Of a DNA stretch of 64,000 nucleotides, positions 19,544 to 39,525 are shown piece by piece. The position numbers were made by a program, and so were the translations under genes. The stretch is from Stenotrophomonas sp. SAU14A_NAIMI4_5 (GTDB lineage: Bacteria > Pseudomonadota > Gammaproteobacteria > Xanthomonadales > Xanthomonadaceae), in contig NZ_CP026003.1 of NCBI RefSeq assembly GCF_003086795.1, forward strand, positions 1,446,777-1,510,776, given 5' to 3'. Within the stretch, counting starts at the first letter, position 1. Each line of letters starts with the position of its first letter. Under the pieces are notes generated by a model. The model was not told the origin of the DNA, searched no databases, and worked only from the letters and a program-made list of their open reading frames with translations.

Positions 19544-19647
19544 GGCCGGGTGGGTGGGCTGCGCAGGGGCGTGAGCCGCATGGATGCGGCGACCGAGCTT
19601 ACAGGGACGTACTTGCAGCGTCCCCTGCGCAGCCCACCCACCCGGCC
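19544..19647. repeat. Large structured repeat, copy 1 (26-bp arms, 52-nt loop)
   Basis: Perfect 26-bp arms at 19544-19569 (begins GGCCGGGTGGGTGGGCTGCG) and 19622-19647 enclose exactly 52 nt. The loop contains an inner hairpin GCCGC-ATGGAT-GCGGC and ends in GCAGCGT. Two other complete copies have a 52-nt loop with related sequence but different arms and a different inner stem (28077 and 30378). No coding potential is seen. The whole gap from 19414 to 19774 holds this element, a SMAG palindrome and the 13-bp tandem repeat, and nothing else I can support. Confidence 0.8.
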
Positions 19648-19740
19648 CATCCAGCAAACCCCAACTGCAACGATCAGCCACGAGGGGCTCCGCCGTTCGC
19701 CGCCTACGGCGAAGCCGAGCTTCTCGGCAGGCAGCAGAGC

Positions 19741-19779
19741 AGTCGACTCTACCAGTCGACTCTACCAGTCGACTCTACC
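19741..19779. repeat. Three tandem 13-bp copies of a half SMAG element
   Basis: AGTCGACTCTACC is repeated three times at a 13-bp period. The last copy supplies the TAG stop codon of the HlyD-family gene at 19775. Confidence 0.8.
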
Positions 19780-20965
19780 GCGCGGGCGCGGGCGCAGGTG
19801 CCGCCGCAGGCTCCGCCGCCGTATCCACCCGCGCGATCACCGACATCCCCGGCCGCAGCCGCGCCGCCAGCTCCTGCCCCGGATCAATCGAAATTCGAAT
19901 CGGCAACCGCTGCACCACCTTGGTGAAGTTGCCGCTGGCATTGTCCGGGCGCAGCACGCTGAACTCCGAACCGGTGGCCGGCGCGATCTGCTCCACGTGG
20001 CCGTGCAGGCGCTGGCCCTTGAACGCATCCACCGAGAACGTCACCGGCTGGCCGATGCGCATCTGCCAGGTCTGGCCTTCCTTGTAGTTGGCCACCACCC
20101 ACAGCGCCTCCGGCACCAGGAACAGCAGCTGCGAACCGGCCGCCACATACTGGCCCACGCGCACGCTGGCCTCGCTGATCTGCCCGTCGCGCGGCGCATG
20201 GATGACCGTGTTGGCCAGGTCGATGCGGGCTAGTTCCAGCTGCGCCTGCGCGCTTTCCACCTGCGCCTCCAGGCCCTTGCGCGCCACCTGGGTCGACACC
20301 AGGGTCTCCTCGGCGATGCGGATCTGCGCCTGCGACTGCTGCACGCTGGCCTGCGCTGATGCCTGGGTGGTTCGGAACTTGTCGCGGTCGTTGATCGAGA
20401 CCAGCTGCTGCGCGGCCAGTTCCTCGTAGCGCTTGGCTTCGTTGCGTGAGCGCTGCAGCTCGGCCTGGCCGGCCGACAGCGTGGCGCGGGTTGAAGCGAT
20501 CTGCGCGCGGTTCTGCGCCTGCGACTGGTCCGAGTTGGCCAATGCCGCGCGCGCGCTGTCCAGCGTCGCCTCGGCCTGCGCCACCTTCTGCGCGTAGATG
20601 CGGTCGTCGATGCGCAGCAGCGGCTCGCCCTTCTTCACGTGCTGGAAGTCTTTCACCAGCACCTCGGTGACATAGCCGGCCACCTGCGGCGCCATCACCG
20701 TGATCTGCCCGCGCACGTACGCGTTGTCGGTGACCATCACGCTGCTGGTGAACGGCCACAGGTTCCACGCGCGCAGGATCAGCGCGATGCCCAGCAGCGC
20801 CACCACCACCATCACCACCACGCTGCGTGAGCTGGGCTTGAGGTATTTCGGTGCCGCCGCGGGCGCGGCAGGCGTGGGCGCAGGCGCAGGCGCAGCGTCG
20901 GTCGGCGGCGGTGGGCTGACGTTCTCGGGGGCGTCGCTGTCGGGGCGGGGCGGTAGCGGAGACAT
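19775..20965 (-). CDS. HlyD/EmrA-family membrane fusion (periplasmic adaptor) protein
   Basis: 396 residues from the ATG at 20965. It should link the neighbouring MFS pump to an outer-membrane channel. The order is a Pro/Ala-rich cytoplasmic N-terminus, one membrane segment near residues 47-67 (SVVVMVVVALLGIALILRAW), the first half of a lipoyl domain (DNAYVRGQITVMAPQVAGYV), a long coiled-coil hairpin (KVAQAEATLDSARAALANSD onwards), the second lipoyl half (TVIHAPRDGQISEASVRVGQ) and a beta-barrel domain (VVANYKEGQTW, GQPVTFSVDAF). This is the EmrA-type pattern. The start is 10 bp after the MFS stop, third in a TetR-MFS-HlyD operon. The stop codon lies in a SMAG-derived repeat. Confidence 0.93.
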   Translation of the reverse strand: MSPLPPRPDSDAPENVSPPPPTDAAPAPAPTPAAPAAAPKYLKPSSRSVVVMVVVALLGIALILRAWNLWPFTSSVMVTDNAYVRGQITVMAPQVAGYVTEVLVKDFQHVKKGEPLLRIDDRIYAQKVAQAEATLDSARAALANSDQSQAQNRAQIASTRATLSAGQAELQRSRNEAKRYEELAAQQLVSINDRDKFRTTQASAQASVQQSQAQIRIAEETLVSTQVARKGLEAQVESAQAQLELARIDLANTVIHAPRDGQISEASVRVGQYVAAGSQLLFLVPEALWVVANYKEGQTWQMRIGQPVTFSVDAFKGQRLHGHVEQIAPATGSEFSVLRPDNASGNFTKVVQRLPIRISIDPGQELAARLRPGMSVIARVDTAAEPAAAPAPAPAR

Positions 20966-20975
20966 GGCGGCGGGC

Positions 20976-22649
20976 TCAGTGGGGCGGGGCGGCGGTGACC
21001 GCAAGGGGCGGAGACGGGTGGCGCTTGTGCCATTGCTTGAGCACGGCGGTGCGCAGCGACAGCAGCAGCAACCAGCACAGGAAGCCGATGGCCAGCCAGC
21101 CGCTCAGGGTGAAAACATCATTGAAGGCGCGCACATTGGCTTCGCGGCGGGCCGTGGTTGCCAGCTGCGCGGTGCCCTGCGCGCTGCGCAGCACCGGGTC
21201 GGTGATCTGCGCGGCGTAGATCTGCTGCTGGATGCGCAGGCGCTGCGCGACCACCGGGTCGGCCGGGTCCAGCTGGCTGGTGATCGCACTGGAATACAGC
21301 TGCTCGCGGTGCAGCTGGAAGGTGCCCAGCACCGCCGAGCCGGCCAGGCCGCCCAGGGTCTGGGTGATCGACAGGGTGACCAGGAAGGTGATCATGTGGT
21401 CCACGCCCTGTTTCAGCGCCGCGGAAATGCCGAGCATGATCAGCGGGCCCATGAACATGCCGGCACCGACCGAGGCCAGGAACTGGCTGATGTAGAAGTC
21501 GTGCGGCCGGTCCAGGCTGGTGCGGCTCTGGTCGAAGAACGCGGCGGTGCCCAGCAGCAGGATGGCCATCAGCAGCTGGGCGATCAGCCGCTTCGGCCCG
21601 AAGGTGAGCGAGGCACCGGCGATGCCGACGATCACCCCGGCCAGGATCACCACGAACAGCGGGCGCATCTGGTCCGGGCCCATGCCCAGCGTGCGCATCA
21701 GGTTGACCACGCCGTAGGACTGTTCGGTGGTGAGGAAGCGCAGCAGGAACGCGCCGACGATGAAGTGCAGCACCGGCAGCGTGGACAGCCAGCGGATCTG
21801 CAGCAGCGGGTTGCGCCGGTAGTGTTCGATGACCAGTGCCGTGGTGGCCAGCGCGATCGAAGCGACCAGGGCCCAGCCCAGCCACGGCGTGTTCAACCAC
21901 CAGCGCGTGTAGCCCTGCGCCAGCACCACCACCAGCAGCGCCACGGCCGGTGCGAGCAGGGCGAAGGTGAGGAAGTCCAGCGGTTCGAACGCCTTGATCT
22001 GTATGCCCGGCGGCAGCTTCAGCACCACCACCGCGGCGAACGCGCACAGCGCCAGGCCGGCCTCGAACGAGTACAGCTGGTGCCACTGGCCGGTATCGAC
22101 CAGCGTCGGCGAGACGATCCAGGCGATCGGCACCGCCAGCTGCGACAGGCCGACACCAATCACCAGCAGGTTGCCGGTGAAGCGCCGCGGCAGCGCCTGC
22201 AGCATGTACAGCGTGCCCAGCGTCGAGCACGCCGCGCCGGCAAAGCCGCTGGCCGCGCGGGTCAGCAGCGTGGTCTCGTAGCTGCCGACGAACAGGTGCA
22301 GCACCGCCAGTGCCGCATACAGGCCCAGGCCGATCTCGGCGAACAGGCGGATGCCGTACTGCTGGCGGAACTTGAAGGCCAGCAGGTTGGCGGTGACGTT
22401 GACCATGGCATAGGCCGCCACCAGCCAGCTGCCCTGGGTGGGCGTCAGCGCGAGCTGGCCCTGCAGGAAGGGCAGGTTGGCGGTGACCAGCGCATTGCCG
22501 AGGCCGCCGGTGATGGCCACCAGCAGCGAGACCAGCGCATAGGCCGCGCGACGGTACGGGGGGTGCCAGGGCATCGAGGCCGAACCGGGCATGGTCGGCT
22601 TCTCGTGCTCCTCCCAGTCCGGAACCGGCTTGAGATACGGCTGGACCAT
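20976..22649 (-). CDS. MFS efflux transporter, DHA2/EmrB-like
   Basis: 557 residues from the ATG at 22649, whose ATG overlaps the TetR stop as ATGA. It is a drug:proton antiporter of the inner membrane. About 14 membrane helices are visible, starting with YALVSLLVAITGGLGNALVT. The DHA2 signature regions include VTANLPFLQGQLALTPTQGS and WLVAAYAMVNVTANLLAF. It differs from many EmrB proteins in an extended C-terminal loop (LHREQLYSSAITSQLDPADP), common in the EmrB/FusA-type subgroup. The genes before and after it encode its repressor and its adaptor; no outer-membrane partner is present, so TolC or another channel must be supplied elsewhere. The drug spectrum is not predictable from sequence. 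Confidence 0.93.
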   Translation of the reverse strand: MVQPYLKPVPDWEEHEKPTMPGSASMPWHPPYRRAAYALVSLLVAITGGLGNALVTANLPFLQGQLALTPTQGSWLVAAYAMVNVTANLLAFKFRQQYGIRLFAEIGLGLYAALAVLHLFVGSYETTLLTRAASGFAGAACSTLGTLYMLQALPRRFTGNLLVIGVGLSQLAVPIAWIVSPTLVDTGQWHQLYSFEAGLALCAFAAVVVLKLPPGIQIKAFEPLDFLTFALLAPAVALLVVVLAQGYTRWWLNTPWLGWALVASIALATTALVIEHYRRNPLLQIRWLSTLPVLHFIVGAFLLRFLTTEQSYGVVNLMRTLGMGPDQMRPLFVVILAGVIVGIAGASLTFGPKRLIAQLLMAILLLGTAAFFDQSRTSLDRPHDFYISQFLASVGAGMFMGPLIMLGISAALKQGVDHMITFLVTLSITQTLGGLAGSAVLGTFQLHREQLYSSAITSQLDPADPVVAQRLRIQQQIYAAQITDPVLRSAQGTAQLATTARREANVRAFNDVFTLSGWLAIGFLCWLLLLSLRTAVLKQWHKRHPSPPLAVTAAPPH

Positions 22650-23215
22650 CAGCGCCCCTGGTTGGCTGCTCCCTGGAGGCCGCCGCGCAGCAGCTGCAGG
22701 GCGCGCCCGGCCAGCTGGGCACGCTCTTCGCGGGTCTTGCCGCGCAGGGCTGCGCCCAGCATGCCCGAGATCAGTGAAATATCCGTCTTTTCCAGGTCCG
22801 GCCGGCACAGGCCGGCGGCCTTGGCGCGGGCGATCGGCGCTTCCAGCAGGTCGCGCACGGTCTCGCGCGCGATGCGCATGGCGGCCACGTCCGAATCCAC
22901 CGCGCGCCAGTAGTCGGCCAGCGCCGGCGAATCGATGATGCGCTGGGCCATGCCTTCGAAGACCTCGAACAGGGCGTCGTCGCGGTCGCCCAGCTGTTCC
23001 ACCTGGCGGCGGATGCGGTCGACGGTCCGCTGCAGCAGCGCCTGGATCAGCGCGGTGCGGTCGGGGAAGTTGCGGTACAGGGTGGCGCGGCCCACCTGGG
23101 CGCGTTCGACCACCAGGTCCAGTGGCGCGGTGACGCCGTGTTGGCCGAACACATGGTCGGCGGCATCAAGGATGAGGGCACGGCGGGCAGCAGCATCAGC
23201 ACGTTGGGTGGTCAT
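22649..23215 (-). CDS. TetR family transcriptional regulator of the efflux operon
   Basis: 188 residues from the ATG at 23215. The N-terminal helix-turn-helix runs over residues 10-55 (ALILDAADHVFGQHGVTAPL, then VGRATLYRNFPDRTALIQAL, a typical TetR recognition helix). The C-terminal ligand domain is helical. The gene overlaps the MFS start by four bases and is the first gene of the operon. A 16-bp palindrome at 23227-23242, just upstream of the start codon, is the likely operator, giving autorepression and repression of the pump. The inducer is unknown. Confidence 0.93.
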   Translation of the reverse strand: MTTQRADAAARRALILDAADHVFGQHGVTAPLDLVVERAQVGRATLYRNFPDRTALIQALLQRTVDRIRRQVEQLGDRDDALFEVFEGMAQRIIDSPALADYWRAVDSDVAAMRIARETVRDLLEAPIARAKAAGLCRPDLEKTDISLISGMLGAALRGKTREERAQLAGRALQLLRGGLQGAANQGR

Positions 23216-23226
23216 GGCTTCATTAT

Positions 23227-23242
23227 CGGACACGTGTGTCCG
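23227..23242. promoter_or_regulatory. Palindromic operator of the TetR-MFS-HlyD operon
   Basis: CGGACAC-GT-GTGTCCG has perfect 7-bp arms and lies 11 bp upstream of the tetR start codon. The size and location fit a TetR-family operator. Confidence 0.75.
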
Positions 23243-23339
23243 GTTGGCGAGACGGTGAGTGACGGGAATGTCCGTTTGTTGCTCTACGCACATCTTTGTA
23301 AATGCGGCGTGAAGATGATGCCCGTGGGAGCGCGCCCAT

Positions 23340-23365
23340 AAAAAACGGGGGCCATGAGGCCCCCG
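23340..23365 (-). terminator. Intrinsic terminator of the TonB receptor gene
   Basis: On the minus strand: CGGGGGCC, loop TCAT, GGCCCCCG, then TTTTTT. It is located about 100 bp after the receptor stop codon, beyond a SMAG element. Confidence 0.85.
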
Positions 23366-23412
23366 GGAGAGAACGGCGATGATCGTCGCCAGGAAATGGT
23401 TGGCTGGGGTCA

Positions 23413-23435
23413 GTAGATCCACGCCATGCGTGGAT
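23413..23435. repeat. SMAG palindrome, GATCCACG subfamily
   Basis: GTAGATCCACGCCATGCGTG, with a partial second copy (GCATGCGTGGATGCC) ending just before the TonB receptor stop codon. Confidence 0.85.
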
Positions 23436-23461
23436 GACCTATCGCATGCGTGGATGCCCGA

Positions 23462-25663
23462 TCAGAAGTACGCGCGGATGCCGAAGGCGACACCACGGCC
23501 CGGCAGCGGCGAGTAGTCACGCAGCAGCGAGGTGTGCGGACGCACTTCGCGGTTGGTCAGGTTGCTGCCATCCAGGAACACCTCGTAGCTGTTGCTGTCG
23601 CTGCGGTCCCAGCGGTACGCGAAGTGCGCATCGACCAGGGTGTAGCCGTCGCTCGGCTCCTCGTTCTGGGCCACATCCTTCTGACGGCTGTAGCGCACCG
23701 CGCCGACCGAGGCACGCCAGCCGTCCTTCGCCCAGCGCAGGTCGGCGCCGACGCGGGCCGGGGCGATGCGCGGCAGGTAACCGGTGTTGGCCAGGTCCAC
23801 GCTGTAGTTGTGGTTGTGGTCACCGTGCGGCACGGCGATGTCCAGCGTGCGGCTGCCGCTGCCATCCAGCTTGGCCTGCACGTAGTCACCGAACACGCGC
23901 AGGTCCCAGTCGCCGGCGTTGCCTTCGAACAGGTGCACCAGCGCCTCGGCCTCGGCACCCTTGAACACTGCATCCTGCTGCGTCCAGGTACGCACCGGCA
24001 GGCCTTCGGTGATGCCGGTGTCGGCCAGGTAGATGAAGTCCTTGAACTTCGTCTGGTAGATCGCGGCGGAGAAGTCCAGACGGTCGCTGTGGGTGTGGAT
24101 GCCCAGCTCGACGCGCTGGCCGCGCTCGGTCTTCAGGTCGGCATCGCCGATTTCCAGCGAACGGGTGGCGATGTGCGCGCCGGCCGCGTACAGCTCTTCA
24201 TTGGTCGGTGCGCGCTCGGAGCTGTCCACGCCGATGCGCAGGTCGACCGCATCGTTGAGCTTCCAGATGCCGGCAGCGGACAGGTTGGTGGCGTCGAACT
24301 TGCGGCGGCGGTAGTCACCGGTCGGGTCCAGCTTGACCTGGTCGTGGCGGCCACCCAGTTCCAGCTTGAACGGGCCGAACTGCTTTTCCTGCAGCACGAA
24401 CAGGCCTGCGTTCTTCGTGTTGGTGTTCGGCACGAACGCTTCTTCGCCGATGGCGCCGAAATCGCTGTTGCCGAACTGCACGCCGAACGCGCCGTCCCAG
24501 CCGCCGATCTGCTGCTGCACGGCTTCCAGGCGGGTTTCGATGCCGCGGTTGGTGAAGCGGGTGGACGGCGTGCCGGCTTCCAGCTCCACGTGTTCGTAAT
24601 CGGTGTAGGCCACGCGTGCATTGACGTTCTTCAGGAACGAGACCGGGTTGTAGATGCCGGCCTTGGTCTCGAAGCGGTTCTGCACCATGTCGATGCGGAC
24701 GTCATGCTCGTCGCCTTCCTCCTCCTCGTCGCCATGGTCATGGCCATGGTCGTGGTCATCGCCATCGGCATGCACGTGGGCGCCGTTGGGGATGCCGTAG
24801 TTGGTGCGGTAGGTGCTGGCCGACACGCCGAAGTAACCGCCTTCGCCCAGCCAGGTGGCACCCACGCCACCGGCGCGGGTACGGATGGAGCTGTTGTCCA
24901 GGCGGCCGCGGCGCGGCTCTTCGCCTTCCTCGCCTGCGTGGTCGTGATCGTGGTCTTCGTGATGGTCTTCCAGGCTGTCGATCACCGCGTAGCCGGGGAT
25001 GCGGTAGTCATCGCCGTTGCGGACCAGGCCGTCGACGTGCAGCACGACGTTGCCGCTGACGCCGTCGAGGCGGAACATGCCGCTGCGCTCGTCGTTGACC
25101 GAGTTGCCACGCAGTTCGGCGCGGCCGCTGAGCGGACGGTCCGGCAGTTCGCGGGCGATGCGGCCATCGACCACGTTCACTGCGCCGCCGATGGCGCCGC
25201 TGCCGAACAGCAGGGTAGCCGGGCCCTTCAGCACTTCGATCTGGTCCGCCAGGAACGGCTCGATGCTGGTGGCGTGGTCGGCGCTGACGGTGGAGGCATC
25301 CATGTTGCCCATGCCGTTGGACAGCACGGCCACGCGCGGGCCTTCCTGGCCACGGATGATCGGGCGGCCGACGCCGGGGCCGAAGAAGGTGCTCTGCACG
25401 CCGGGCAGCTTGGCCACGGTGTCCCCCAGGGTGCCGGCCTTCTGCTCGTCCAGGCGCTCGCCGGCCAGCACGTCCACCGGCCGGGCCAGCGACTCGGCAT
25501 CGCCCTGCAGCGGCGAGGCGGTGACCTGCACCGACGACAGCTCGGTCAGGTGGCGGTCACGATGGGTGTCCTGGTCGGCGGCGGCAAACGCGGCCGACGG
25601 CAGCAGGGCGGCGAGGGCCAAGGCCAGGGAATGCGGCTTGAAACGTGGGTGGTGAGAGGGCAT
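23462..25663 (-). CDS. TonB-dependent outer-membrane receptor, ZnuD-like (zinc uptake)
   Basis: 733 residues with AAGGA before the start and a signal peptide ending SAAFA near residue 28. The plug domain spans about residues 45-170 (SSVQVTASPL; ADQIEVLKGPATLLFGSGAI) and the beta-barrel ends in the terminal Phe of GIRAYF. Two loops are strikingly rich in His and acidic residues: LEDHHEDHDHDHAGEEG (231-247) and HVHADGDDHDHGHDHGDEEE (296-315), the hallmark of ZnuD-type receptors that bind and import zinc, sometimes also haem. A Zur-like box overlaps its presumed promoter at 25678. It is divergent from a MerC-like gene that has its own box. Zinc as the substrate is inferred from these features. 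Confidence 0.92.
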   Translation of the reverse strand: MPSHHPRFKPHSLALALAALLPSAAFAAADQDTHRDRHLTELSSVQVTASPLQGDAESLARPVDVLAGERLDEQKAGTLGDTVAKLPGVQSTFFGPGVGRPIIRGQEGPRVAVLSNGMGNMDASTVSADHATSIEPFLADQIEVLKGPATLLFGSGAIGGAVNVVDGRIARELPDRPLSGRAELRGNSVNDERSGMFRLDGVSGNVVLHVDGLVRNGDDYRIPGYAVIDSLEDHHEDHDHDHAGEEGEEPRRGRLDNSSIRTRAGGVGATWLGEGGYFGVSASTYRTNYGIPNGAHVHADGDDHDHGHDHGDEEEEGDEHDVRIDMVQNRFETKAGIYNPVSFLKNVNARVAYTDYEHVELEAGTPSTRFTNRGIETRLEAVQQQIGGWDGAFGVQFGNSDFGAIGEEAFVPNTNTKNAGLFVLQEKQFGPFKLELGGRHDQVKLDPTGDYRRRKFDATNLSAAGIWKLNDAVDLRIGVDSSERAPTNEELYAAGAHIATRSLEIGDADLKTERGQRVELGIHTHSDRLDFSAAIYQTKFKDFIYLADTGITEGLPVRTWTQQDAVFKGAEAEALVHLFEGNAGDWDLRVFGDYVQAKLDGSGSRTLDIAVPHGDHNHNYSVDLANTGYLPRIAPARVGADLRWAKDGWRASVGAVRYSRQKDVAQNEEPSDGYTLVDAHFAYRWDRSDSNSYEVFLDGSNLTNREVRPHTSLLRDYSPLPGRGVAFGIRAYF

Positions 25664-25677
25664 CCGGTGCTTCCTTT

Positions 25678-25690
25678 GTTACATTGTATC
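25678..25690 (-). promoter_or_regulatory. Zur-like box before the TonB receptor
   Basis: GTTACATTGTATC matches the gammaproteobacterial Zur core GTTATAWTATAAC at 10 of 13 positions. Read on the minus strand it includes a TACAAT -10 candidate and ends next to the AAGGA ribosome binding site. Confidence 0.6.
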
Positions 25691-25756
25691 AATCGGGTGG
25701 CGCACGTATCCCTTCGTGGGACAGGGGGAGGGAAACCGTGCGGGTCGGGGACAGAT

Positions 25757-25769
25757 GTTATATTATTCC
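25757..25769 (+). promoter_or_regulatory. Zur-like box before the MerC-like gene
   Basis: GTTATATTATTCC matches the Zur core at about 11 of 13 positions. It sits in an AT-rich island (GTTATATTATTCCATAAC) 30 bp before the start codon. Confidence 0.6.
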
Positions 25770-25798
25770 ATAACGATTCGCCGACCCTGCTGGAAGTC

Positions 25799-26212
25799 AT
25801 GTCCCTGTCCTCCTCCTTCCGCCGCCTGCTCGACCGCTTCGGCGCCACCGGTTCCATGCTGTGCGCCGTGCACTGCGCGGTGATCCCGGTGCTGCTGGCG
25901 ATCGCCCCTTCGCTGGGCCTCTCGTTCTGGCTGAGCGACGGCGTGGAAATGACCCTGGTCGTGTTCGTGACCCTGCTTGGCCTGTTCAGCCTGGTCATGG
26001 GCTACCGCCGCCATGGCGCCCTGCGCGCGCTGGGTTTCCTGCTGCCGGGCCTGGTCGCCCTGTGGGCAGGCGTGCTGGTCGATGCGTTGCACCACAACGC
26101 CGTGCCGCACGCGGTGGTGATGACCCTCGGCGGCCTGCTGGTGGGCGTGGCCCACCTGGTCAACCTGCGCCTGAACCACGTCCACGTCCACGACGCCAGC
26201 TGCGCGCACTAG
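25799..26212 (+). CDS. MerC domain-containing membrane protein
   Basis: 137 residues from the ATG at 25799. Four membrane helices are visible. The first contains the cysteine pair of MerC-type proteins in GSMLCAVHCAVIPVLLAI; the second pair typical of mercury MerC is absent, and the C-terminus instead ends in LNHVHVHDASCAH, a His/Cys tail. MerC carries metal ions across the inner membrane in mercury operons, but no mer genes are near. With the Zur-like box upstream and the divergent ZnuD-like receptor, a role in zinc handling under zinc limitation is more likely. Whether it moves metal or senses it is not shown. Confidence 0.85.
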   Translation: MSLSSSFRRLLDRFGATGSMLCAVHCAVIPVLLAIAPSLGLSFWLSDGVEMTLVVFVTLLGLFSLVMGYRRHGALRALGFLLPGLVALWAGVLVDALHHNAVPHAVVMTLGGLLVGVAHLVNLRLNHVHVHDASCAH

Positions 26213-26322
26213 GCGCGTCGTGTTAGGCTTTCCGATCGTGCGCGGGGGCGTCCAGCAAGACGGCCCCGCCGAACCCGTGTCAGCACGGGGTAACCAGATT
26301 TCACACTTTAGGAGTTGAAGAC

Positions 26323-26502
26323 ATGGGTAAGGGTGACCGCAAGACCGCCAAGGGCAAGCGCTACAACGCCAGCTACGGCAATGCCCGTTCGCACACCGCG
26401 AGCAAGGTCGCTGTAGGCGCCGGTGCCCCGGTTGCCAAGAAGACCGTGGCCAAGGCTCCGGCCAAGAAGGCTGTGGCGAAGAAGGCTGCTGCCAAGGCCT
26501 GA
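26323..26502 (+). CDS. Small 30S ribosomal protein THX-like
   Basis: 59 residues, preceded by TTTAGGAG at a good distance. The first 25 residues, MGKGDRKTAKGKRYNASYGN followed by ARSH, match the bacterial THX family (S31e-like), a basic peptide that sits in the head of the 30S subunit. Typical THX proteins end about there; here a tail of Ala, Lys and Val repeats (KKTVAKAPAKKAVAKKAAAK) follows and resembles the C-termini of histone H1-like bacterial proteins. The gene has its own terminator and no operon partner. THX identity is inferred from the N-terminus; an alternative is a small nucleic-acid-binding protein. Confidence 0.85.
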   Translation: MGKGDRKTAKGKRYNASYGNARSHTASKVAVGAGAPVAKKTVAKAPAKKAVAKKAAAKA

Positions 26503-26526
26503 TCCGGCCGGGTAAGTGGTCCAAAG

Positions 26527-26557
26527 AAAAACGCGGCGCCTGGCGCCGCGTTTTTTT
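26527..26557. terminator. Bidirectional intrinsic terminator
   Basis: The stem ACGCGGCGCC/GCGCCGCGT is flanked by AAAGAAAA on the left and seven T on the right. It can stop the THX-like gene on the plus strand and the pyrophosphatase gene on the minus strand. Confidence 0.85.
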
Positions 26558-26586
26558 GTGCCCGGCATTCTTCCTGCCGCTGCGCT

Positions 26587-26609
26587 CGCCGGGCATGGCC
26601 CGGCGCTAC
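26587..26609. repeat. SMAG palindrome, GCGCCGGG subfamily
   Basis: Reverse copy CGCCGGGCATGGCCCGGCG followed by CTAC, 25 bp before the stop codon of the pyrophosphatase gene. Confidence 0.85.
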
Positions 26610-26634
26610 CTCACCGCCCCGGCGGCCGTTGGAA

Positions 26635-27879
26635 TCAACGCAATGTCTTCTGCAGCGTCTCGGCGTTGCCATCATTCGGCGCGGCCGGCACCTGCAGCAG
26701 CTGCGCCAGCAGCGGATAGACATCGACGTTGTCGAAGCCATCGATCACCAGCCCCTGGCGGAACGACGGACCGCGTGCGACGAACACGGCGCGCATCGAG
26801 GGCAGGGCGTTGTCATAGCCGTGCGAGCCACGATCCTGGTGGGTGCGCGTGCTGATCCGCTCGGCGCGCAGTGCGTCCCAGCCCTCATCCATCTGGCAGA
26901 CGATGGGCGGCACGCGCGGGTGCGAACCGTAGTGCCAGCGCGCCGGCAGCGATTCCTTCTTCCAGCATTCGTAGTGGGCGTGGCGACCGAGCAGGGCGCG
27001 CTCGGCCTGCGCCTCGCGGCCGGCGACCGGCGCGAAACCGACCGACTGGCCCTGGCTGACGTTGCGCGCGATGGACGGATCGGCCATCGACTCGGTGGAC
27101 ACCACATGGCCCTCGGCCACGCTGGCCATGCCGTGGTCGGAGACCACGATGACGTTGGTGGTGGCCGCCAGCCCGCTGGCTTCCAGGCCATCCAGCACCT
27201 GGCCGACGATCTCATCCGCCTGCACGATCGCATCGCGGTACTCGGTCGAATCGGGGCCATGGTTGTGGCCGGCCTTGTCGACGTTTTCCATGTACAGGGT
27301 GGTCAACCGCGGTGCATCGGCATCGGTCTGCGCCAGCCATTCCAGCACCGTACGCGCGCGCTGCTGCAGCGGTTCCTTGCTGTTGTAGACCTGCCACTGG
27401 CTGGGGCGGGTCCCGTCGATCTCGGCTTCGCTGCCCGGCCAGGACGTGGTCGCGGTGCGCACGCCGACCTTCTCGGCACCGACCCAGATCGGCTCGCCGC
27501 CCCACCAGCCACTGTTGGTCACTGCGTCGCGGTCACCCAGGCTGAAACGGCCCAGCTGGGCATCGTCCATGCTGTTGTTGACGATGCCATGGTGGTCCGG
27601 GCGCAGGCCGGTGACGATGGTGTAGTGGTTGGGGAAGGTCAGCGACGGATAGGACGGCGTCATCCAGCGCGCACGCACGCCGCCATCGATGATGCGCTGC
27701 AGGTTTGGAGTGAGCCCCCGGTCCAGCGCATCGGCACGCAGGCCATCGATGGAGATCAGCAGCAGTTTCGGCGGCGGCGCGTCGGCGCGCGCAACCGGCG
27801 CGGACGAAGAAGGCGTGGTCGTGCAGGCCGCCAGGGGCAGCAGCAACGCCAGCGAGCAGGTCAGGCGTACGGAAGTCAT
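26635..27879 (-). CDS. Nucleotide pyrophosphatase/phosphodiesterase (NPP, alkaline phosphatase superfamily), lipoprotein
   Basis: 414 residues from the ATG at 27879. The lipobox LPLAAC places Cys 19 as the lipidated residue, so the protein is exported and anchored. The NPP core is clear: LLLISIDGLRADAL with the metal Asp 45, then TPSYPSLTFPNHYTIVTG with nucleophile Thr 81, GHNHGPDSTEYRDAI with metal ligands, and VIVVSDHGMASV with the Asp-His pair. RGSHGYDNALPSMRAVF carries the last His. This matches the well-studied Xanthomonas NPP, which hydrolyses nucleotide phosphodiester bonds. It is probably a phosphate- or nucleotide-scavenging enzyme in the periplasm. The frame remains open to 28035, but no signal lies there. 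Confidence 0.94.
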   Translation of the reverse strand: MTSVRLTCSLALLLPLAACTTTPSSSAPVARADAPPPKLLLISIDGLRADALDRGLTPNLQRIIDGGVRARWMTPSYPSLTFPNHYTIVTGLRPDHHGIVNNSMDDAQLGRFSLGDRDAVTNSGWWGGEPIWVGAEKVGVRTATTSWPGSEAEIDGTRPSQWQVYNSKEPLQQRARTVLEWLAQTDADAPRLTTLYMENVDKAGHNHGPDSTEYRDAIVQADEIVGQVLDGLEASGLAATTNVIVVSDHGMASVAEGHVVSTESMADPSIARNVSQGQSVGFAPVAGREAQAERALLGRHAHYECWKKESLPARWHYGSHPRVPPIVCQMDEGWDALRAERISTRTHQDRGSHGYDNALPSMRAVFVARGPSFRQGLVIDGFDNVDVYPLLAQLLQVPAAPNDGNAETLQKTLR

Positions 27880-27915
27880 CGCGACATCATAAGCGCGCGC
27901 AATGACGCACCCAAG

Positions 27916-27941
27916 ACACGGCGCGCAGAAGCGCGCCGTGT
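27916..27941. other. Strong hairpin upstream of the NPP gene
   Basis: ACACGGCGCGC and GCGCGCCGTGT are perfect 11-bp arms with a 4-nt AGAA loop. It lies 36 bp upstream of the NPP start codon. It might terminate leftward transcription arriving from the repair operon or act as a regulatory structure. It has no T-tract on the minus strand, so termination is uncertain. Confidence 0.5.
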
Positions 27942-27968
27942 CCACGCATTTTTGCGCGTCCGGACACA

Positions 27969-28042
27969 GTAGAGCCACGCCATGCGTGGATGATTCATTC
28001 GATATCTGACAGATGTGCCGACCAACGGTCGGCACCCACTAC
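27969..28042. repeat. Two SMAG palindromes
   Basis: 27969-27991 starts GTAGAGCCACGCCATGCG. 28015-28042 is GTGCCGACCAACGGTCGGCAC followed by CCACTAC, a reverse copy of the GTGGGTGCCGACC subfamily. The gap 27880-28266 holds these, the hairpin at 27916 and the structured repeat at 28077. Confidence 0.85.
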
Positions 28043-28076
28043 CAGCAGTTCCCATCAGCCGCGTGGACCTGTCGAA

Positions 28077-28178
28077 GGCGGGGCACTGTGGGTTTGCGGG
28101 GTGTGAGCGGCATGGATGCCGCGACCAAGCCCCCATGGACGGGTTTACGGCGTCCCCGCAAACCCACAGTGCCCCGCC
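28077..28178. repeat. Large structured repeat, copy 2 (25-bp arms, 52-nt loop)
   Basis: Perfect 25-bp arms at 28077-28101 (starts GGCGGGGCACTGTGGGTTTG) and 28154-28178. The loop is 52 nt: inner hairpin GCGGC-ATGGAT-GCCGC, then GAGC-type spacer, CCATGGACGGG and TTTACGGCGT. On the right it continues into ATCCCACGGAATGC and a GCAGGGCGCAGCCCTGC hairpin near 28235, features shared with copy 3 and the truncated copy at 39.4 kb. Confidence 0.85.
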
Positions 28179-28266
28179 ATCCCACGGAATGCCCGCTCTG
28201 GCCTTGGCTTTGGCCGTTGCCGTTGCATTGAGCGGGTGCAGGGCGCAGCCCTGCCGGCCCCCACCC

Positions 28267-28758
28267 TCAAGCAAACAGCGGTGCCTGCCGCTGCTCCAAC
28301 CGCAGCAACGCCGCCTTGGTCTCCAACCCACCCCCAAACCCGGTCAACGCACCATTGCTGCCAATCACCCGATGGCACGGCAGGATGATCGGCAACGGAT
28401 TACGCCCATTCGCCGCGCCCACCGCACGCGTCGCCGTCGGCTGGCCCAGGTGCTGCGCCAGCTGCAGGTAACTCCAGGTCTGCCCGAACGGAATCAGCGC
28501 CAACGCACGCCACACCCGCAGCTGGAATGGCGTGCCCTGCGGTGCCAGCACCAGATCGAAGGTGCTGCGCTCACCGTGCAGGAACTGCAGCAGCTGCTCG
28601 CGCGCCGCCGGCAGCGCATCCGGTGAATACAGCCAGTCGCCGCGGCCGCGCGCTGGGTGGCGGTTTTCCGGGAACAGCACGTGGGCCAGGCCACGTTCGT
28701 CACCAGCGATGGTCAGCTCGCCGATCGGGCTGTCGAAACGATCGAACAACAAGGTCAT
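28267..28758 (-). CDS. ogt: Methylated-DNA--[protein]-cysteine S-methyltransferase
   Basis: 163 residues. It directly reverses O6-methylguanine and O4-methylthymine by transferring the methyl group to its own cysteine. The acceptor Cys 128 is in the invariant ILPCHRVIGSNGALTGFGGG region; the DNA-binding helix is in PFQLRVWRALALIPFGQTWS, and the arginine finger is in TRAVGAANGRNPLPI. The ATG overlaps the stop codon of the upstream alkA-type gene (ATGA), so the two are translationally coupled into one alkylation-damage repair operon. Confidence 0.96.
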   Translation of the reverse strand: MTLLFDRFDSPIGELTIAGDERGLAHVLFPENRHPARGRGDWLYSPDALPAAREQLLQFLHGERSTFDLVLAPQGTPFQLRVWRALALIPFGQTWSYLQLAQHLGQPTATRAVGAANGRNPLPIILPCHRVIGSNGALTGFGGGLETKAALLRLEQRQAPLFA

Positions 28759-30233
28759 GTCGGTTCTCCAACAAAAGTGCCGGACAGGTGCCACAGGTGC
28801 AGCACCGCATAGGCGCGCCAAGGCCGCCAGGGTTGCGAACGCGCCTCGGTGGCACGTTCGCTCAGGCGCTGGCCCTGCGCATGGCCGAGCACCTGCTGCA
28901 GCACCAGGTCACCGGCGGGGAAGGCATCGGGTTGGCCCAGGCCGCGCAGGGCGATGTACTGCGCCGTCCACGGCCCGATACCGGGCAGGGCCACGCAGCG
29001 GGCGACGAAATCCTCCAGCGCCTGGCCGGGGCCGAAATCCAGTTCACCACCGGCACAGGCTGTCGCCAGCGCCCGCACAGTGGCCGCACGCGTGCGCGGC
29101 AGGCCGATCGATTCCAGCGGTGCCTCGGCCAGCACCTCCGGTGCCGGAAACTGGCGGTCGAACTCGGCCGGCATGCCGGGCAGGTGCGCACCCCAGGCAT
29201 CGACCAGGCGACGCGCGAAGGTTGTGGCCGCCGCGACGGTCACCTGCTGACCCAGCACCGCGCGCACGGCTACTTCAAAACCATCCCAGCCACCGGGCAC
29301 GCGCAGGCCGGGCCGCTCGGCGATGCCGCGTGCCAGCAGCGGTTCGTCGGCCAGGGCCGCGTGCACCTGCTGCAGGTCGGCATCGAGGTCGAACACCCGG
29401 CGCACGCGGCGCACGATGTCCGGAATCAGCCGCGGATCGACCGCGCCCAGCTGCAGGCGCAGTTCCGGGCGCTTCGGGTCGGCGGTCACCCGCAGCAGGG
29501 TGGGGCGTTCGGGCGTACCGAGCACGCGCTGGTAGCTGTCCTCGCCGATCAGTTCGATGCCCGGCAGGCTGCGCTTGCGCAGGAAGGCGAGCATGCGCGG
29601 GAAATCCAGCGGCGGGCGATAGCCCAGTCGCAGCACCAGGCTGCCATCGTCGGCGGCCGAGGGAGTGTGCTGGCGGCGCAACGCGGTCGGCGCCATGCCG
29701 CAGCCCTGCAGGAAGGCCGTGTTGAAGCGGCGCAGGCTGTTGTAGCCGGCGGCCAGGGCAACGTCGGTGACCGGCAGGGTGGTTTCGGTCAGCAGCTGCT
29801 TGGCCAGCAGCAGGCGATGGGTGGCGTGGATCTGCCCGGGCGTGGCGCCCAGGTGTTCGACGAACAGGCGCTGCAGCTGGCGTGCGCTCACGCCCAGTTT
29901 CGCGCCGAGTTCGGCCACGGCCTGGTCCTGCAGGAAGCCGCCATGGATGAGCGCCAGGGCGCGCTGCACGGTCTGCCCGGCGAGGGCCTGCTGTGCCTGC
30001 GGGGCGAGTTCGGGACGGCAGCGCAGGCACGGTCGATAGCCGGCGGCAGCGGCTGCGGCGGCGGTCGGGTAGTAGCTGATGTTGCGCGGCTTCGGCGGCG
30101 GTGCCGGGCAGACCGGGCGGCAGTAGATGCCGGTGCTGCGCACGGCGGTGAAGAACACGCCGTCGAAGCGCGCGTCGCGGGCCAGGCGGGCGCGGTCGCA
30201 GGCGGCGTGGTCGAGGGTGGGGGCGGTGTCCAT
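28755..30233 (-). CDS. Ada/AlkA fusion: zinc domain, AraC-type HTH and 3-methyladenine DNA glycosylase II
   Basis: 492 residues. Three modules are visible. Residues 10-80 are the Ada methyl-phosphotriester zinc domain, with Cys 38, 42, 69 and 72 (GIYCRPVCPAPPPKPRNISY, YRPCLRCRPELAP). About 85-185 is an AraC-type DNA-binding domain (LGVSARQLQRLFVEHLGATP; LAAGYNSLRRFNTAFLQGCG). From about 195 to the end is AlkA, with an N-terminal TBP-like part and the helix-hairpin-helix GPD region LPGIGPWTAQYIALRGLG, followed by catalytic Asp in FPAGDLVL. The protein should sense methylated phosphate backbone, activate its own operon, and excise 3-methyladenine. Together with the coupled methyltransferase it forms a rearranged Ada response. 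Confidence 0.94.
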   Translation of the reverse strand: MDTAPTLDHAACDRARLARDARFDGVFFTAVRSTGIYCRPVCPAPPPKPRNISYYPTAAAAAAAGYRPCLRCRPELAPQAQQALAGQTVQRALALIHGGFLQDQAVAELGAKLGVSARQLQRLFVEHLGATPGQIHATHRLLLAKQLLTETTLPVTDVALAAGYNSLRRFNTAFLQGCGMAPTALRRQHTPSAADDGSLVLRLGYRPPLDFPRMLAFLRKRSLPGIELIGEDSYQRVLGTPERPTLLRVTADPKRPELRLQLGAVDPRLIPDIVRRVRRVFDLDADLQQVHAALADEPLLARGIAERPGLRVPGGWDGFEVAVRAVLGQQVTVAAATTFARRLVDAWGAHLPGMPAEFDRQFPAPEVLAEAPLESIGLPRTRAATVRALATACAGGELDFGPGQALEDFVARCVALPGIGPWTAQYIALRGLGQPDAFPAGDLVLQQVLGHAQGQRLSERATEARSQPWRPWRAYAVLHLWHLSGTFVGEPT

Positions 30234-30306
30234 GGCGCCAGTCTAGGGCGGGGCGGGGGGAGATACTCGCCGGATTCGGACATGGATGTTGTTGGGGGTT
30301 TCGGCA

Positions 30307-30475
30307 GGGCTTGCAGCCCTGCACCCGCAAGGTCAACGTCAACTTCCAGGTCAAAAGCTGGCAGTCCGTGGGATGGCGGGGCGGTGTGGGCTGGCAGGAC
30401 ACGCCGTAAACCCGTCCATGGGGGCTCGATGGCGCCATCCATGGCGCCAACGGTCCTGCCAGCCCACACCGCCCC
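30307..30475. repeat. Large structured repeat, copy 3, with conserved flank
   Basis: A GCAGGGCTTGCAGCCCTGC hairpin at 30307 is followed by GCAGTCCGTGGGATGGC and the structured element: 23-bp perfect arms 30378-30400 and 30453-30475 (extendable past one mismatch), loop 30401-30452 of exactly 52 nt. The loop is inverted relative to copies 1 and 2. In the common orientation it has an inner hairpin GGCGCC-ATGGAT-GGCGCC-like stem and the segment GAGCCCCCATGGACGGGTTT. The gap 30234-30767 otherwise contains only the repeats listed next. Confidence 0.85.
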
Positions 30476-30519
30476 ACCTCTGACAGTTGGCCGCGGCTGT
30501 TGGAACCTGCTGCTGGTGG

Positions 30520-36732: not shown

Positions 36733-36754
36733 CCGTTTCGGGCCACAGAAAGGG

Positions 36755-36792
36755 GGGCGGAGGGGATTGAATCGATTCAATCCCCTCCGCCC
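36755..36792. repeat. Perfect 38-bp palindrome of the CGGAGGGG family
   Basis: GGGCGGAGGGGATTGAATC continues into its exact reverse complement. The centre is the ATCGAT palindrome. The same outer CGGAGGGG/CCCCTCCG arms occur at 15558. Confidence 0.85.
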
Positions 36793-36892
36793 GCCTTCCC
36801 GTGGTCCGGCTTCGCATGGTCCACACATGGGCAGCCATAGGCTGGCATAGTTGATCAAGGAGGTTGTCACGGCACATTCGGGGGGATCCGGG

Positions 36893-39316: not shown

Positions 39317-39525
39317 TGCAGGGCTTGCAGCCCTGCACCTGCTTCAATTCAGGGCAACGTCAAAAGCCTGCATTCCGTGGGATGGCGGGGCACTGTGGGT
39401 TTACGGCGTCCCCCTCAACCGGACCCGCCCCGCCAACCCTCAGAAAACCAGCTTCTGCTGTTGAGGTTGCCGGCCAGCGGCCGGCACTACCGCTTCTGCA
39501 GGTGCAGGGCTGCAAGCCCTGCCGT
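39317..39525. repeat. Truncated structured repeat with GCAGGGC hairpins and a SMAG copy
   Basis: GCAGGGCTTGCAGCCCTGC at 39317, then GCATTCCGTGGGATGGC and a short version of the structured element (GGCGGGGC...GCCCCGCC, 39384-39434) in which most of both arms and the inner hairpin are missing but GGGTTTACGGCGTCCCC remains. SMAG GCCGGCCAGCGGCCGGC plus ACTAC lies at about 39468-39490 and another GCAGGGCTGCAAGCCCTGC hairpin at 39506. The gap 39308-39628 contains nothing else. Confidence 0.8.

Follow-up and report, generated by a model that had tools for sequence, protein, structure and literature searches.

The window, that is, the whole stretch of 64,000 nucleotides of the Stenotrophomonas sp. 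SAU14A_NAIMI4_5 genome analysed here, carries four copies of a hairpin element which, when full, is about 104 nt long. W1, a full element of subfamily A, spans 19544-19647 on the plus strand, with 26-bp arms enclosing a 52-nt loop. Its first inner hairpin, GCCGC-ATGGAT-GCGGC, occupies 19575-19590 (hexaloop 19580-19585; assigned from sequence, head pattern, and covariation), and its second, TAC-AGGGAC-GTA, 19600-19611 (hexaloop 19603-19608; assigned from head pattern and stem covariation), both on the plus strand. W2 is a full element at 28077-28178 on the plus strand (head pattern 28111-28152; hexaloops 28112-28117 and 28135-28140), and W3 a full element at 30375-30478 on the minus strand (head pattern 30402-30443, minus; hexaloops 30437-30442 and 30414-30419). 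The covariance model R1, built from 27 copies, scores W1, W2, and W3 at 126.3 bits (E 2.5e-23), 101.4 bits, and 102.1 bits, respectively, partly by construction as all three are among the model-building sequences. W4 (39384-39434) consists of arms with the head deleted and is placed on the plus strand from its remaining 3' half; judging by its sequence, it is probably one element whose head was apparently lost between two GGGTTT stretches.

An earlier, sequence-only reading of the window had described three full copies and a truncated one, and all four stand, except that the third is three bases longer on each side than it had given. Its loop of exactly 52 nt holds for the window copies, and the corresponding 9+31+12 = 52 nt layout is also the commonest geometry overall (159 of 190 stems). 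The arms, said to differ while remaining paired, do keep their pairing, but their differences within the window partly reflect subfamilies, and the GCAGGGC flank hairpins once counted as a shared family feature look, from the flanks, like separate short repeats. A head pattern of about 20 fixed bases matched three times in the window versus zero times in 100 shuffles; this control, together with 109 model matches in the own genome and the covariation described below, rules out chance hairpins. Another strong intergenic hairpin lies at 36738-36809 of the window, with sub-threshold miRNA matches on both strands.

A covariance model search, as the sequence-only reading had proposed, returned these 109 matches in the Stenotrophomonas sp. 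SAU14A_NAIMI4_5 genome, 107 of which were recovered with E values no higher than 1e-9 when the stretches were fetched and rescored; BLAST with W1 found 54, a part of which were lone arms on the opposite strand. Together with seven fragments found by BLAST only, the model matches form 84 clusters (members within 1 kb): 28 single plus copies, 25 single minus copies, 28 minus-plus pairs 90-284 bp apart, and one minus-minus-plus, one plus-plus, and one minus-minus cluster, each of the last three containing a copy split by 81 bp. All 29 pairs of own-genome copies at most 1 kb apart share one inverted arrangement, and no plus-minus pair occurs among the own-genome clusters; the plus-minus arrangement is present in two Xanthomonas records (L235, L260). 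An insert of about 81 bp, multi-hairpin in appearance, replaces the hairpin-1 loop at G000:C1 2177179-2177361, 3744014-3744194, and 3937901-3938083 (L080, L113, and L116), and the same insert is found in a fourth copy at G000:C1 868938-868999. Repeats that we label SMAG-like by resemblance adjoin elements.

On the strand whose loops carry GGA, the element reads 5' arm, nine bases (including the 5' side of the hairpin-1 stem), hairpin 1, AGC, hairpin 2, TTNACRGCG or a variant of it, and 3' arm. Hairpin 1 is C-ANGGAN-G on a stem of about 5 bp, and hairpin 2 is C-ANGGAN-G on a 3-bp stem that continues beyond a bulge as GC/GC; the two GGA triplets lie 23 nt apart. The sequence-only reading had overlooked hairpin 2, taking this second covarying hairpin for a "shared segment" of the loop, and had rightly described the first as covarying around its loop, as the heads of the own genome and of two further genomes (f7) confirm. 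In an alignment of 60 diverse copies (A5), 95.4% of stem cells pair, compared with 62.2% in shuffled and 37-47% in slid controls, the figure for helix 1 being inflated because rows were picked for good stems, stem geometry, and length; double changes numbered 492 versus 140 in the control. Covariation thus exceeds the controls and supports the earlier suggestion of selection on structure. The stems of hairpin 2 alternate between UAC/GUA, CCC/GGG, and UCC/GGA, and the third pair of its extension is non-standard in 17 of the 60 rows.

The loops behave differently from these stems. A.GGA. hexaloops occur in 97/97 (hairpin 1) and 96/97 (hairpin 2) distinct own-genome heads, with C-G closure in 97/97 and 94/96, and in 72/72 and 69/72 heads of the two f7 genomes, with closure in 72/72 and 68/69 (72 of 74 matches were counted; of the other two, one was truncated where its contig stops and one carries a long insertion). 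The loop A, the GGA, and the closing C-G are hence nearly constant and the N positions take all four bases, while the stems change; for copies from named records, the invariance of the GGA loops is by construction, since they were found by a pattern fixing these loops. In a further genus, where 26 of 29 loci fit the arm pattern, hairpin 2 sits on different, longer stems of the GGCC/GGCC type, whose extended helix covaries (GCC/GGC, GCT/AGC, GCG/CGC). Two C-ANGGAN-G loops are nevertheless kept in each of the 19 distinct heads read; one locus (L406) has hairpin 1 only. Mean identity in f7 is 0.70-0.74 for the head versus 0.49-0.55 for the arms: conservation is concentrated in the loop and variation in the arms.

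The sequence-only reading knew no name for this family. Its head, however, is that of the Yersinia palindromic sequences reportedly described as YPAL (De Gregorio 2006) and RU-2 (Delihas 2007), and of the Rfam family Ysr224. RU-2 is the Y. pestis form of YPAL, and its sequence, as printed in the available part of PMC2759123, aligns across the whole head, including both ANGGAN hairpins, GAGCC, and TTTACGGCGT, with one extra base between the hairpins; when RU-2 was aligned with eight hand-picked copies, all 28 invariant columns fell within the head. Both YPAL/RU-2 and the present element are dispersed intergenic hairpins present in some relatives and absent from others, but YPAL/RU-2 is longer and its arms are imperfect. 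The accessible portions of the YPAL/RU-2 literature make no mention of twin hexaloops, a strand bias, or a wider range; there, the hosts given for YPAL in 2007 are Yersinia and Erwinia carotovora alone (PMC2229807), and another paper gives Y. pestis (PMC2267715). The consensus of Ysr224 (RF02770) corresponds, in reverse complement, to the head together with adjoining arm sequence, and is thus recorded on the strand opposite to the GGA loops, a point against the RNA reading given below. W3 matched it with 35 bits, under the gathering cut-off of 70, W1 and W2 gave no match at E 1, and the cut-off was reached in none of 17 other copy-bearing sources. Ysr224 is listed as one of the 20 most prevalent sRNAs (PMC9029176), and several of its copies are reported to be expressed in Y. 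ruckeri (PMC12112432). Further Rfam matches, to C4, rsmX, and miRNAs, were below cut-off and treated as chance. A literature search that covered few subscription journals found no paper for the 15-mers of the loop or for a gammaproteobacterial repeat with a conserved loop. The alternative that the copies were chance hairpins or a known repeat devoid of covariation is therefore half right: the repeat family is known, but its covariation is strong. The element is real, structured, and mobile, and already known in Yersinia under other names; new are its range, its anatomy, and the CsrA/RsmA hypothesis developed below.

With regard to range, the head pattern matched at least 119 stretches of the GTDB collection, and the 80 matches listed include Shewanella, Marinobacter, Halomonas, Alteromonas, Vibrio, Idiomarina, Microbulbifer, Methylotuvimicrobium, Ectothiorhodospira, Xanthomonas, Stenotrophomonas, and others; three viral contigs matched as well. 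A second model, R2, matched at least 76 of 369 genomes drawn from the class, the own genome included, which is a lower bound as 12 candidates were scored per genome. At E 1e-5, 16 of 299 genomes of the phylum, a sample with an unlisted share from other classes, matched, all 16 belonging to the same class. Two genomes unmatched in that run (G472 and G476) are among the 15 of 25 genomes of the G472 genus that match at E 1e-3 under fuller scoring, which shows the lower bound at work. Closer to the window, the element is present in 32 of 61 relatives, including 28 of 37 of the own genus (own genome counted), and within one genus copy number runs from none to more than 100 between species. The plasmid, phage, and E. 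coli collections gave no match to the 51-nt head consensus at E 0.01. Six same-orientation elements about 227 bp apart form a regular tandem array at G601:C1 94430-95646, and three matches to sX9 (RF02228) lie within 3 kb of an element of Xanthomonas dyei (L250 2408-2483, 4208-4283, and 6210-6285).

Mobility is apparent from sites that hold the element in some close relatives but not in others, an insertion polymorphism that the sequence-only reading had suggested looking for and that supports its notion of a mobile hairpin DNA. At the W1 site, one relative with a 98%-identical neighbour protein has no hairpin, another (neighbour protein 94% identical) retains only the start of one arm, and of the 30 loci fetched for this site no more than three, from the own genome, G013, and G029, gave a model match. 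The element is absent from G026 and G011 at the sites of both W2 and W4, the latter site holding a head-bearing copy in G009; at the W3 site it is absent from G026, and the copy in G011 has B-type arms. Some absences are clearly deletions, so that an empty site need not be the older state, and no target site duplication was evident by eye in the few junctions aligned. The W2 and W4 copies of the draft genome G009 are broken up by stretches of N and of G (L308, L309), suggesting that the hairpin blocks sequencing, so that copy counts from drafts may be low. A retron origin was rejected, as no element lies in the locus of one reverse transcriptase gene with a VTG motif (G000:3527815). This gene (L031, G000:C1 3527815-3528462) encodes a reverse transcriptase of 592 aa with a long C-terminal part, which we take to be retron-type. 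For a pair of copies on a viral contig (L307), no transposase-like gene was recognised by eye in the 2.4 kb between them.

Which strand folds can be read from the arm mismatches. A transition in a paired arm leaves G.T or A.C with equal mutational chance, since the same change is viewed from either strand. However, 97 distinct own-genome copies show 53 G.T versus 5 A.C (23 versus 5 when counted by distinct position and type), and 103 stems of other genomes (115 heads less 12 in which no ungapped stem could be clearly traced) show 99 G.T, 12 A.C, and 98 other mismatches (two-sided binomial p 3e-18 for G.T versus A.C, cells being treated as independent although copies are related). Changes not attributable to cytosine deamination, as judged by the nearest copy, were G.T in 10 cases and A.C in none. 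The loop-bearing strand is thus the strand that folds under selection. Palindromes carrying GTAG, which presumably move as single-stranded DNA, gave a weaker excess (12 versus 3, in a set that includes chance hairpins), and strand bias alone therefore cannot separate RNA from one-stranded ssDNA. We take the element to be MITE-like and selected as a single-stranded fold, most probably of RNA.

The same comparison feeds a different explanation, which we regard as rather unlikely: the head would be an ssDNA recognition site for a HUH/Y1-like transposase, the GGA loops would be enzyme contacts, and RNA would play no part. It accommodates the insertion polymorphism between relatives, the weak strand-specific wobble bias of GTAG palindromes, and the single inverted arrangement of all 29 close own-genome pairs, as in REP doublets, but not the other arrangement of the two Xanthomonas records. 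SMAG or GTAG REPs and REPINs are intergenic palindromes often found as inverted pairs, but REPs are described, in the available text, as 20-40 bp long with a GTAG tag (PMC3733652), whereas the present element lacks GTAG at its ends and has a conserved 52-nt loop. REP or REPIN palindromes of 20-40 bp end in a GTAG or CGTC tag, and the flanks of the copies inspected show neither. No copy lies in any of the six fetched Y1_Tnp loci, which counts against the transposase explanation; cognate copies flanking the transposase gene are a REP/REPIN trait, and a RAYT-driven REP was rejected on this ground. Also against the transposase explanation, the loops agree with a known RNA-binding consensus wherever it is constrained, and their variation falls on the positions that it leaves free.

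Gene context, counted on gene calls in which 6 of 8 window proteins had Pfam domains, is less favourable to RNA. Where a lone copy lies between tandem genes, its orientation is not biased towards sense (15 sense versus 13 antisense), and a simple scan found no sigma-70-like promoter in the three window spacers, both of which count against an RNA reading. YPAL is said to sit just downstream of stop codons and has reportedly been proposed as a passive 3'-end structure, a terminator or mRNA stabiliser, whose function would lie in the long stem, with the loop of no importance in itself. This seems improbable for the present element. Genes do often point at elements (21 of the 28 minus-plus pairs have a left gene that does so, and 15 a right gene), but a location next to gene 3' ends is frequent rather than general, and single copies face such an end with the outer side in 33/53 and the inner side in 35/53 cases, so that this facing is no property of one end; besides, it is the loop that is conserved, whereas the arms vary. 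Still less credible is that template-switch correction during replication, a known mutational process for quasi-palindromes, keeps the arms paired without selection on pairing, as it predicts neither the excess of G.T over A.C nor the covariation within the two inner hairpins; the different but matched arms of the same-site G011 copy would fit it, but look like replacement by another copy since they match subfamily B.

We return to a loop strand acting as RNA. High-affinity sites for CsrA/RsmE are described in PMC4005645 as an ANGGAX hexaloop directly on a stem, with N and X looped out and free, and both inner hairpins of the own-genome and f7 heads are of this form. The exact consensus RUACARGGAUGU, as quoted in the accessible text of PMC7937890, occurs in 15 of 72 f7 heads versus 0 of 144,000 shuffles, in 0 of 97 own-genome heads, in 2 of 84 heads from named records, and in 0 of 13 others. 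The CsrA family is present in 58 of 61 relatives, and the three without CsrA are also without the element; among the 37 genomes of the own genus, nine carry CsrA yet gave no match to the element. The head resembles CsrA/RsmA-sequestering sRNAs of the CsrB/RsmZ type in placing several GGA hexaloops on stems of one RNA, but differs in having only two sites, a very long stem, and up to about 100 dispersed copies. In Xanthomonas, RsmU is an RsmA-sequestering sRNA, presented in the available portion of PMC7694677 as a novel, genus-limited family. Furthermore, the targets of three P. putida Rsm proteins include, in the same accessible text of PMC7937890, ISPpu8-adjacent regions and a "long palindromic region", a lead that may bear on this family.

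The best explanation, which we hold with no great margin of confidence, is that the element belongs to a gammaproteobacterial family of miniature mobile hairpins that includes YPAL/RU-2. The loop-bearing strand would act as RNA and, more speculatively, the twin hexaloops may dock a CsrA/RsmA dimer; transcribed copies might then titrate CsrA/RsmA or bring it to mRNA 3' regions, and the long stem may protect or terminate transcripts. A bolder version, which we offer only tentatively, is a class-wide selfish element whose RNA evolved, with selection acting on one strand, into a candidate twin high-affinity CsrA/RsmA platform, either a dispersed, copy-variable sponge or a CsrA-hijacking mobile RNA.

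Our analysis brings together in one family a repeat known from Yersinia, an Rfam sRNA that had stood alone, and hairpins without a name from many genera, and provides the conserved head of a scattered repeat with a concrete and falsifiable functional hypothesis. Evidence for it may already be contained in the P. putida Rsm pull-down, as far as the available text of that study indicates. If CsrA/RsmA does bind, a mobile element with anything from no copy to more than 100 copies in the species of one genus would buffer a global regulator, and the reading of Csr/Rsm networks would change.
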